The position numbers were made by a program, and so were the translations under genes. 64,000 nt of DNA, from contig NZ_CP103794.1 in the NCBI RefSeq assembly GCF_030388325.1, positions 3,286,001 to 3,350,000 of the forward strand, in the 5' to 3' direction. Origin of the DNA: Flavobacterium johnsoniae. Lineage in GTDB: Bacteria > Bacteroidota > Bacteroidia > Flavobacteriales > Flavobacteriaceae. The notes under the pieces were generated by a model. The model made no database searches. It saw nothing but the letters and a program-made list of their open reading frames with translations, and was not told where the DNA came from. Positions 20,201-22,505 of the stretch are shown in pieces (within the stretch, counting starts at the first letter, position 1; each line of letters begins with the position of its first letter).

Positions 20201-20229
20201 TTTGATATTCCAATGTGATCCTATTTTTG
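20201..20229 (+). promoter_or_regulatory. Complete Bacteroidetes promoter (-33 TTTG, -7 TATTTTTG)
   Basis: TTTG at 20201-20204 is followed 17 bases later by TATTTTTG at 20222-20229, a good match to the phylum consensus. The cupin gene starts 37 bases downstream. Confidence 0.6.
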
Positions 20230-20265
20230 TCTCGCAATAGTGCAAAAACTAAAAAGATAATTATT

Positions 20266-20727
20266 ATGGAAACGAATGAAAAAAAATTCTCATCAAAAGA
20301 TTTTCATCAGACTTTTGCTAGACCAAGTTTTACAATGCCTGATAAATTAATTCATCGAAATGTTGAAAATGCAGGCGAACACAATCAGTTTTCTACAGAA
20401 CGAAAACATCCAGTATTTTTTGTAGATCTGCCAAGTAAAAATGTAAGTATGACAATTGGTGGATTATTGCCGGGACAATTGACTAACAGACACAGACATA
20501 CTTACGAAACGCTTTTGTATGTTATTGAAGGTTCAGGTTTTACTGAAATAGAAGATCAGAAAGTAGAATGGAAAGCTGGCGACGCTGTTTATATTCCAGC
20601 ATGGACATGGCACAGGCATCAAAATTTAAGCGAAACAGAAAACGCAAAATATATCGCTACTGAAAATGCGCCTCAACTACAGAATTTGGGAGTAGCATTG
20701 AGAGAAGAAGAAGGAAGAGATTTATAA
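20266..20727 (+). CDS. Cupin-domain protein
   Basis: The protein has 153 residues from the ATG at 20266. An upstream extension would cross the promoter and is rejected. A single cupin barrel shows the metal-binding motif NRHRHTYETLLYVIEGSG and the second motif GDAVYIPAWTWHRHQNLS. Predicted to be a small metal-dependent enzyme or sugar-binding protein in the cytoplasm. It is 14 bases upstream of the DapA-family aldolase and probably in the same operon, so it may act on the same substrate, for example as an isomerase or decarboxylase; that is inference. Confidence 0.85.
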   Translation: METNEKKFSSKDFHQTFARPSFTMPDKLIHRNVENAGEHNQFSTERKHPVFFVDLPSKNVSMTIGGLLPGQLTNRHRHTYETLLYVIEGSGFTEIEDQKVEWKAGDAVYIPAWTWHRHQNLSETENAKYIATENAPQLQNLGVALREEEGRDL

Positions 20728-20741
20728 AGAAAAAGACATAC

Positions 20742-21623
20742 ATGAACGATACAAAATTTAAAGGCATTATTGCTTATCCGATCACACCATTTGATGAAAA
20801 TGAAAAAGTAGATATTACTTTATACAAAAATCTCTTAGAACGTTTAATAATTTCAGGTTCTCATGTTGTTGCGCCATTAGGAAGTACAGGAGTTATGCCT
20901 TATCTAAATGACGAAGAAAAACTAGCTATAACAACAGCCACAGTTGAACAGGTAAAAGGAAGAGTTCCGATTTTAGCTGGCGTATCAAATCTTACTACCG
21001 AAAGAACCATTTTTCATGCAAAAGAAGCAGAAAAGGCTGGAGTAGATGCCGTAATGATTATTCCCATGAGTTACTGGAAACTGAGTGATGATGAAATTAT
21101 AAAACATTATGATGCTGTAGCTAGAGAAATTTCTATTCCTATAATGGCTTACAATAATCCAGCAACAGCTGGAATTGACATGTCTCCGAAATTATTAAAA
21201 CGCCTTTTGGAAATTCCGAATATTACGATGATTAAAGAAAGTACGGGAGATGTTCAGCGAATGCATTATTTAAAGAAAGAATTAGGAGATGATGTAGCTT
21301 TTTTTAATGGATCAAATCCATTGGCGTTGTCTGCTTTTGCAGCGGGAGCTACCGGTTGGTGTACAGCTGCGCCAAATTTAATTCCAGAGTTGAATTTAGC
21401 CTTATATGAAGCTGTACAAAAAAATGATTTTAATAAAGCTCAAAAATTATTTTATAAACAAATTAATCTTTTAAAGTTTATTGTTGAGAAGGGATTGCCT
21501 AGAGCAATAAAAGCTGGGTTAAATCTTCAAGGTATTGATGGAGGACATTTAAGAAAACCTCTTCAATCATTGGAGAAAGAGGAAATTAATCAGCTAGAAA
21601 CTATTCTGAATTCTTTTAAATAA
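20742..21623 (+). CDS. Dihydrodipicolinate synthase / N-acetylneuraminate lyase family aldolase
   Basis: The 293-residue TIM-barrel protein belongs to the DapA/NanA family. Markers are GSTGVMPYLNDEEK (the substrate-carboxylate loop), the tyrosine in MAYNNPATAG and the Schiff-base lysine in ITMIKESTGDVQRM. The family condenses or cleaves pyruvate adducts. The context of a cupin in the same operon and a divergent acetylesterase fits sugar-acid or carboxylate catabolism better than lysine synthesis, but the substrate cannot be decided. It ends at a terminator shared with the convergent ilvN-like gene. Confidence 0.88.
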   Translation: MNDTKFKGIIAYPITPFDENEKVDITLYKNLLERLIISGSHVVAPLGSTGVMPYLNDEEKLAITTATVEQVKGRVPILAGVSNLTTERTIFHAKEAEKAGVDAVMIIPMSYWKLSDDEIIKHYDAVAREISIPIMAYNNPATAGIDMSPKLLKRLLEIPNITMIKESTGDVQRMHYLKKELGDDVAFFNGSNPLALSAFAAGATGWCTAAPNLIPELNLALYEAVQKNDFNKAQKLFYKQINLLKFIVEKGLPRAIKAGLNLQGIDGGHLRKPLQSLEKEEINQLETILNSFK

Positions 21624-21677: not shown

Positions 21678-22175
21678 CTATTTAAATCCCTTTCCAGATT
21701 TTGCAATCGCAATTCTAGAACTTTCTACAAATTCAACAAGTTCAAATTTTTTAAGTTCTTTTATCAGATTAATACTTTGTATTTCTTGAACCGTAAATTC
21801 AAATATGGTATAAGTGCTGGCAACAGAAAGATGTTTCGCATTATATTTTCTAAGAATATCATTCAATTTTTCATTTATAATAATTTGATTGGTAGGAATT
21901 TTAAACAAAACCACTTGTGTCCAAACAATCTCTTGATTGGTATGATAAGTACATTTAAAAACTTCTATAATTTTTTCTATTTGAAGCGCAATATTTCTAA
22001 CTGTATCAGGAGTTTCAGTTATTAAAATCGTGTATTTATAAATATCATCAATTTCACAAAGCGAAATATTGAGACTTTCGATTTTAATATTTCTTCGCGT
22101 AAAAACGAGTGAAATTTTATTGATTAAATCAAATCGGTCTTCTGTGTAAATCGTTAAGTTGTGTTGTTCTTTCAT
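21678..22175 (-). CDS. Orphan acetolactate synthase small subunit-like protein (ACT domain)
   Basis: The protein has 165 residues starting at ATG 22173-22175 (MKEQHNLTIYTEDR). The longer reading frame would translate the upstream terminator and is rejected. The N-terminal ACT domain opens with LTIYTEDRFDLINKISLVFTRRNIKIESL. The later segments QIEKIIEVFKCTYHTNQE and FVESSRIAIAKSG match the pattern of Flavobacterial IlvN proteins. IlvN normally confers valine feedback on the IlvB catalytic subunit and is encoded with ilvB, ilvC and ilvD, but none of these is nearby. Two Ile-rich leader peptides and two terminators precede it, so expression is probably controlled by branched-chain amino acid supply. 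Confidence 0.85.
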   Translation of the reverse strand: MKEQHNLTIYTEDRFDLINKISLVFTRRNIKIESLNISLCEIDDIYKYTILITETPDTVRNIALQIEKIIEVFKCTYHTNQEIVWTQVVLFKIPTNQIIINEKLNDILRKYNAKHLSVASTYTIFEFTVQEIQSINLIKELKKFELVEFVESSRIAIAKSGKGFK

Positions 22176-22220
22176 TTGTTTTTTTTCAAATCCGTTTAGG
22201 TTAATTTTAATTTTGAAGTA

Positions 22221-22255
22221 AAAAAAAACCTTTCTCGTTTTGACTGAGAAAGGTT
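22221..22255 (-). terminator. Proximal intrinsic terminator of the ilvN-like leader (T2)
   Basis: Read on the minus strand, a 10-bp stem (aacctttctc / gagaaaggtt) is followed by nine U residues. It lies between leader peptide 2 and the ilvN-like start, where an attenuator belongs. Confidence 0.88.
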
Positions 22256-22282
22256 GATTATAGACAATATAATTCCGACTCG

Positions 22283-22339
22283 TCAAAAGAGACAGGTAAT
22301 AATAATTGCGCTAATAATAATTGAAGTTAAATTTTTCAT
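22283..22339 (-). CDS. Leader peptide 2, 18 residues, six Ile codons
   Basis: ATG at 22337-22339 to TGA at 22283-22285 encodes MKNLTSIIISAIIITCLF. Six isoleucine codons stand in two runs of three (IIISAIII). The ORF begins right after terminator T1 and is followed by terminator T2. This is the classic arrangement of a translation-dependent amino-acid attenuator of branched-chain genes, and the downstream gene is IlvN-like. It shares the opening MKNL and the IIIS core with leader peptide 1. Confidence 0.82.
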   Translation of the reverse strand: MKNLTSIIISAIIITCLF

Positions 22340-22351
22340 GTTTTATCAAAT

Positions 22352-22383
22352 AAAAAAACCTCCCGTTTGAGGGAGGTTTTTTA
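22352..22383 (-). terminator. Distal intrinsic terminator of the ilvN-like leader (T1)
   Basis: Read on the minus strand, the stem cctccc / gggagg extended by A-U pairs has seven U residues after it. It lies between leader peptides 1 and 2. Confidence 0.88.
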
Positions 22384-22403
22384 TGTATAGTTCGTAAACT
22401 TAA

Positions 22404-22478
22404 TTAAAAAAGACACTCCTCACGATTATCGCCGATAATTGTGTTAATGCTAATAATAATTGTAATTAAGTTTTTCAT
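22404..22478 (-). CDS. Leader peptide 1, 24 residues, seven Ile codons
   Basis: ATG at 22476-22478 to TAA at 22404-22406 encodes 24 residues beginning MKNLITIIISINTII and ending REECLF. Seven isoleucine codons fall within the first 15 residues. The start lies 19 bases after a -7 box. It is followed by terminator T1. Together with leader 2 it forms a tandem attenuator array upstream of the orphan ilvN-like gene. Confidence 0.82.
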   Translation of the reverse strand: MKNLITIIISINTIIGDNREECLF

Positions 22479-22497
22479 TTCTTTTTTTATTGAATGG

Positions 22498-22505
22498 CAA
22501 ATGTA
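22498..22505 (-). promoter_or_regulatory. -7 box of the attenuator transcript
   Basis: On the minus strand TACATTTG matches TAnnTTTG and is placed to start a transcript just ahead of leader peptide 1. Confidence 0.6.

Follow-up and report, generated by a model that had tools for sequence, protein, structure and literature searches.

Two putative isoleucine attenuators in series precede ilvN2, an accessory acetohydroxyacid synthase subunit gene, in Flavobacterium

The gene ilvN2 of Flavobacterium johnsoniae is very probably preceded by two ribosome-mediated isoleucine transcription attenuators that lie in series on one transcript. We analysed a window of 64,000 nt (the whole stretch of DNA, G000:C1:3286001-3350000 of a 5.3 Mb genome), for which an initial annotation had proposed two complete Ile leader-peptide attenuators, one behind the other, before an IlvN-like gene. 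Conservation and predicted base pairing support that proposal. Our reading draws on sequence, namely on the two units, their conservation, their pairing potential and the identity of the gene. The mechanism is ordinary; the architecture is unusual and is widely conserved.

RESULTS

Layout of the tandem leader

Direct reading and scripted placement reproduced to the base the order of parts first annotated: on the minus strand, a -7 box, peptide 1, terminator 1, peptide 2, terminator 2 and the IlvN-like gene. The features, with the evidence for each, are:

22498..22505, minus strand: -7 box TACATTTG of the presumed promoter (sequence; Flavobacterium form TAnnTTTG)
22404..22478, minus strand: leader peptide 1, MKNLITIIISINTIIGDNREECLF, 24 codons, 7 Ile (sequence; an Ile-rich peptide stands here in 37 of 37 relatives)
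22412..22423, minus strand: putative segment 2 of unit 1, GTGAGGAGTGTC (alignment A1, consensus 2:3 helix, stall/stop folding)
22351..22382, minus strand: predicted intrinsic terminator 1 with U tract (consensus scan, folding, RNAalifold, pair counts)
22283..22339, minus strand: leader peptide 2, MKNLTSIIISAIIITCLF, 18 codons, 6 Ile (sequence; kept in 37 of 37 relatives)
22275..22285, minus strand: putative segment 2 of unit 2, TGACGAGTCGG (alignment A2, RNAalifold, pair counts, stall/stop folding)
22220..22255, minus strand: predicted intrinsic terminator 2 with U tract (centroid fold, RNAalifold, pair counts)
21678..22175, minus strand: ilvN2, accessory acetohydroxyacid synthase (AHAS) small/regulatory subunit, 165 aa (Pfam, NCBIfam, PDB sequence and fold matches)

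In the window, segment 2 of unit 1 lies inside the peptide ORF; its potential partner is the 5′ arm of terminator 1. In unit 2 the segment begins at the stop codon of peptide 2, and its potential partner is CTCAGTC of terminator 2. A consensus terminator scan listed terminator 1 and did not list terminator 2. The latter is present in the centroid; in the minimum-energy structure of the full leader it is absent and an antiterminator-like stem replaces it. None of 200 dinucleotide shuffles folds as well as the leader (z -3.72).

The TAnnTTTG form is the -7 consensus for Flavobacterium in the part of PMC9723704 consulted. No TTG -33 box was seen by eye. An internal promoter for unit 2 was considered and seems unlikely, as inspection by eye of the stretch from terminator 1 to peptide 2 showed no TAnnTTTG. 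Downstream, a DHDPS-family gene (20742-21623) and a cupin gene (20215-20727) lie on the plus strand, convergent to ilvN2.

When both strands of the 64 kb were scanned for an Ile-rich short ORF followed by a terminator, only these two units were found, forming one tandem pair. In 30 dinucleotide shuffles of the window the same scan found 0.5 units on average and never a tandem pair, and a chance origin of the tandem units was rejected on this ground.

Conservation across the genus

The IlvN2 protein was used in a search blind to the leader (E 1e-36) of 398 Flavobacterium genomes from a larger group. It returned 63 places in 60 of the 398 genomes, which were sorted by the presence of ilvB directly upstream. 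The leader is found at none of the 26 places directly behind ilvB (L076 among them). At all 37 others both Ile peptides and both terminators are present. These 37 loci represent 34 genomes, a floor given the cut-off and the drawing of the genomes from a larger group. Two genomes carry several copies of ilvN2, each with its own double leader: three in G486 (L043, L064, L065) and two in G590 (L038, L077). Among named records the leader was found in 30 Flavobacterium and one ‘Flavobacteriaceae bacterium’ (32 stretches including one archaeon, L255, whose match we take as chance), and strain CI04 of F. johnsoniae (L228) carries the locus; the named locus L237, with its match near a contig end, shows no tandem pair.

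In each of the 37 relatives peptide 1 contains 6-10 Ile and peptide 2 contains 5-10, so that the comparative search for these peptides proposed with the first annotation found both Ile runs conserved at 37/37 loci. At all 37 a single upstream -7 box, TAnnTTTG, precedes the start codon of peptide 1 by 23-28 nt, and transcription would begin from it.

The 2:3 arms and the stretch from stop codon to terminator are also highly conserved, much as in a riboswitch, and one might suppose that the leader senses a metabolite or a protein instead of charged tRNA-Ile, the Ile codons merely reflecting base composition. We consider this very improbable. At gathering thresholds Rfam has no match in the window, shuffles of this AT-rich window seldom yield such peptides and never a tandem pair, and the Ile runs are retained while other residues of the peptides vary.

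Still less credible is that the ORFs encode small membrane peptides or type I toxin-like proteins, with the terminators as ordinary ends of small transcripts. The leader peptides are short and hydrophobic, as toxin-like micropeptides are. However, they precede genes of the Ile pathway (ilvN2, ilvA, ilvE-D-B-N-C, ilvB-N-A), their coding sequence pairs with the RNA that follows, with compensatory changes, and their make-up is Ile rather than Leu or Val, Ile accounting for 575 of the 1348 residues over the 37 loci and Leu for 67. Sensing of Ile supply by translating ribosomes is the reading pursued below.

Pairings within each unit

The initial annotation suggested folding the leader for antiterminators, and the alternative pairings of classical attenuation are indeed predicted in both units: RNAalifold on alignments A1 and A2 recovers 1:2, 2:3 and 3:4 helices in each. 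In the 1:2 and 3:4 helices of unit 1, 92.1% of cells are paired and 12 of 27 pairs are changed on both sides, compared with a mean of 5.4 in shuffles that ignore kinship among the sequences (0/500 as high) and with 4-7 for slid partners. In those of unit 2, 96.4% of cells are paired and 22 cells are changed on both sides (6.7 in the same kind of shuffles, 0/500 as high), 16 of the 22 falling in one terminator pair. Counted by pairs, 3 of 23 are changed on both sides, which is not above the shuffles (157/500 as high), nor is the number of pair types.

For the 2:3 helix, 87.2% of cells are paired in unit 1, with 3 of 13 pairs changed on both sides versus 2.6 in shuffles. In unit 2, 94.3% of cells pair versus 36-56% when the partners are slid; on the alignment no pair shows a compensatory change, and the covariation score is below those of all 500 shuffles. 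By eye, GAUGAG stands for GACGAG in L040, L042, L052 and L069, facing CUCGUC, CUCAUA, CUCAUA and CUCAUC, respectively, in a register outside what the alignment can score. Compensatory changes thus back the predicted 1:2 helices and, more weakly, the terminators. The antiterminator 2:3 is suggested by conservation, with weak compensatory support in unit 1 and none in unit 2.

Modelled ribosome stalling

We modelled a ribosome with its leading edge 13 nt past the A-site codon, stalled at the last run of at least two Ile, and counted any pairing of the 5′ arm of the terminator. With the ribosome stalled, the arm is predicted to be sequestered with a median probability of 0.82 in unit 1 and 0.74 in unit 2. 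With the ribosome at the stop codon these values fall to 0.03 and 0.05, and when the intervening upstream RNA is shuffled they are 0.47 and 0.38. In the modelled folds, sequestering under stalling exceeds 0.5 in 36/37 loci for unit 1 and 37/37 for unit 2. The exceptions in unit 1 are L069 (0.01 stalled) and L074 (0.63 stalled versus 0.65 at the stop). In a stricter model, which counts only consensus 2:3 pairs and in some peptides takes a lone Ile near the end as the last run, 20/37 and 19/37 loci exceed 0.5 for units 1 and 2. The window itself gives 0.60 stalled versus 0.02 at the stop for unit 2 (0.33 in the stricter model), and its 1:2 pairing with no ribosome is weaker, at 0.48 for unit 1 and 0.28 for unit 2. 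Each unit has an ORF rich in the pathway residue, a terminator between this ORF and the gene, a 1:2 pairing and, by computed folding, an antiterminator that depends on the stall.

Unit 1 may work less well in the window and in two related loci (L001, L033, L034), because a one-base gap deletes the usual stop codon of peptide 1, which then reads through segment 2. It could be argued that in this genome only unit 2 attenuates and that unit 1, as a decayed or constitutive terminator, merely lowers expression; the weak consensus 2:3 pairing of unit 1 in the window (0.05 in the stricter model) would agree with this. We regard it as unlikely. All three members of this clade (3/37 loci) retain the Ile run, terminator and promoter spacing of unit 1, the unit is intact in the other 34 loci, and when any pairing is counted its arm in the window is sequestered at 0.84 under stalling and 0.00 at the stop. 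Two working attenuators remain the favoured reading for the window too.

The downstream gene

The annotation of the downstream gene as IlvN-like holds in that it encodes an AHAS small subunit; it is, however, an accessory copy and not the ilvN of the ilv operon. Pfam ALS_ss_C matches above its cut-off and the ACT models fall below theirs. NCBIfam TIGR00119 scores 59.1 bits, just over its cut-off of 56.9, and NF008864 scores 72.8 bits against a cut-off of 119, which the IlvN of the genome’s own operon also misses (104.2). Four distinct AHAS regulatory-subunit chains in the PDB match at E 0.001 or better. With the predicted model (pLDDT 83, pTM 0.50), each of the 23 top-ranking fold matches in the PDB is to an AHAS regulatory subunit or complex (TM 0.50-0.58). 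Judged from family profile and predicted fold, ilvN2 encodes an accessory AHAS regulatory subunit.

The ilv operon, leuA-leuB-ilvD-ilvB-ilvN-ilvC, is located 0.39 Mb from ilvN2, and its IlvN is 30% identical to IlvN2. Only one IlvB over the family cut-off is found in the genome, in the operon, and none lies beside ilvN2. Since there is a single AHAS large subunit, IlvN2 would, if it has a partner, share that IlvB. The Gln and Lys of a QIEK stretch (Q65, K68) are invariant in alignment A3, which would fit a subunit that still serves IlvB.

An operon IlvN is also present in 34/34 genomes and is 95-100% identical to that of the window’s genome; the accessory copies diverge widely, with 41-100% identity to the IlvN2 of the window. 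In the protein tree all 97 operon-type rows lie on one side of a branch with support 100/79. The 37 accessory rows require two changes and do not form one clade, in a tree with unsettled bootstrap and several long accessory branches.

Residues of the valine site were also compared. We take Asn11 and Gly14 (E. coli numbering) to be valine-site residues. Both are kept in 0/37 accessory copies, compared with 53/56 operon-type rows; Gly is kept in 17/37 accessory copies and Asn in 3/37. IlvN2 of the window has Asp at both places and so lacks the valine-site pair.

Origin of the two units and their number elsewhere

A recent duplication, to which the similarity of the two peptides had seemed to point, is not borne out: like units of different species are more alike than the two units within one leader. 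The median identity of the window to others is 71% for unit 1 and 77% for unit 2, and that between the two units of one leader is 57% (n = 37) over a shuffled background of 50%. By sequence comparison, the units represent two separate types of long standing. An RNA model of unit 2 (R1) scores unit 1 weakly (E 2.7e-5). Near-identical neighbouring units exist elsewhere, for example upstream of ilvE in L126, L127 and L185.

At E 0.001, R1 matches 85 and the corresponding model of unit 1 (R2) 147 of the 398 genus genomes, and R1 matches 19 of 199 family genomes; those near E 1e-4 to 1e-3 are mostly raw matches. Units were then counted at loci with at least one unit adjoining an ilv gene. Where ilvN2 comes first there are two units in 52/52 rows (51 loci, L138 being the same as L181), 37 of these loci having come from the leader-blind search and 14 through R1. 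Where ilvA comes first there is one unit in 19/19, a chosen part of a longer list. Operons that begin with ilvE have one, two or three units in 7, 15 and 4 cases, counts from a biased sample, since the ilvE and ilvN2-ilvA loci were fetched through an RNA-model match. There are two units in 2/2 before ilvB-ilvN-ilvA, and ilvD-first operons have one unit in two cases and two in one. Arrays also occur outside the genus, with three units in L185 and two in L187, L191 and L193.

Three units stand before ilvE-ilvD in L125, L129 and L131 within the genus and in L185 of another genus; in these arrays the last two units are near-copies and the first is of an Ile/Val type with a different terminator. 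In the genome of the window itself, the ilvD operon has one Ile/Val unit (peptide MQISIIITSVVVVNVIHTSASGML), and ilvA, encoding threonine dehydratase (L165, G000:C1:2050000-2055000), has one Ile attenuator (MKNFNNIIIAIISIIAIQQ). In L134-L140, L143 and L145-L148, the double leader and ilvA are separated by a gene for a shortened IlvN-like protein (142-146 aa) whose sequence has diverged strongly; these are possibly decaying or leader-like genes.

DISCUSSION

We propose that each unit acts as a classical attenuator. The peptides would be translated as the leader is transcribed. When Ile-tRNA is plentiful, the ribosome would reach the stop codon and mask segment 2, the 3:4 terminator would form and transcription would end. 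When Ile-tRNA is scarce, the ribosome would stall in the Ile run, the 2:3 helix would form between segment 2 and the terminator’s 5′ arm, and RNA polymerase would continue. If the peptide is not translated, 1:2 would pair and leave the terminator free. Because terminator 1 precedes peptide 2, synthesis of ilvN2 mRNA would require the release of both. The series is thus predicted to behave as an AND of one signal, with a lower leak and a steeper response, since the fractions of read-through would multiply. From this we infer steeper or two-step control.

Attenuation of this kind is classical in branched-chain operons, E. coli ilvGMEDA being the familiar ribosome-mediated example. A second, ilvBNC of C. 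glutamicum, is described in PMC8709942 and PMC11857589, as far as these sources were covered. The leader of ilvN2 shares with both a peptide rich in the pathway residue, a terminator, antiterminator and anti-antiterminator, and a branched-chain target. Unlike these single units, it has two, with up to three in relatives; their peptides mix Ile, Val and Leu codons, whereas Ile stands almost alone here, and the target here is a lone regulatory subunit.

In the open-access literature we found no leader-peptide attenuators for the same amino acid in tandem; the initial annotation, for its part, knew of no described tandem case in Bacteroidetes. It is the architecture, tandem attenuators for one amino acid, and not the mechanism, that is unusual. 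The nearest case found in print is the mgtCBR leader of Salmonella, in which two ORFs give additive signals for ATP and proline (PMC3641672, in part). It resembles the ilvN2 leader in having two short ORFs, each with its effect on the mRNA upstream of the gene; it reads two signals, however, whereas one amino acid appears to be read twice here, with two terminators in series. The consulted part of the same paper contrasts mgtCBR with leaders having two intrinsic terminators and names tandem riboswitches such as that of Bacillus clausii metE. In metE, too, two full units of sensor and terminator stand in series, but the sensors there are ligand-binding RNAs for two ligands, and in the ilvN2 leader they would be stalling ribosomes for one amino acid.

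A transcriptome study of Flavobacterium psychrophilum reports leader-peptide attenuation ahead of operons for amino acids (PMC9723704), and the parts of that work consulted place such peptides before amino-acid biosynthesis operons in the same genus; ‘ilv’ occurs 0 times in its main text, and those parts contain no tandem units. Leader-like sORFs are mentioned in the consulted part of a Bacteroides map (PMC7366714). A terminator survey, as far as seen, describes a second tandem terminator in some rimP leaders, its main text being without ‘Bacteroid’ (PMC2965389), and the portion seen of an actinobacterial survey is without ‘tandem’ (PMC1262725).

Two attenuators in series probably restrain a spare subunit that is possibly valine-tolerant, as the substitutions in the accessory copies suggest. 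For comparison with C. glutamicum we take G20 as the equivalent of Gly14; this and the other residue equivalences come from our own alignment. According to the consulted part of PMC11893703, the wild-type enzyme of C. glutamicum has Asp (D17) at the Asn place and is yet valine-sensitive, and D17E frees it from valine. G20D/I21D/I22F also does so (PMC8709942, in part). Since C. glutamicum is sensitive with Asp at the Asn place, loss of the Gly is the stronger sign, and the 17 copies that keep the Gly may well bind valine.

We put forward only tentatively, and with more doubt than belief, the broader idea that the number of units (1-3) sets gain and that here a double switch restrains a valine-deaf spare subunit, which would be swapped in under valine excess. 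Valine would shut the normal enzyme, Ile would run out and both switches would open. The spare subunit would then displace its normal counterpart from the single IlvB, and Ile synthesis would escape inhibition by valine. Such a swap, like the AND-type series, is a prediction.

Textbooks present attenuation as one switch. The conservation of arrays in which two or three complete switches serve the same amino acid would mean that, in bacteria, leak and steepness are set by the count of units. Natural matched cases for testing this are at hand, with one unit before a lone ilvA, two before ilvN2 and one to three before the ilvE operon. In E. coli, AHAS II is a second full enzyme that provides a way around valine inhibition; a gene such as ilvN2 under a double switch suggests a route past that inhibition that needs no second full enzyme.
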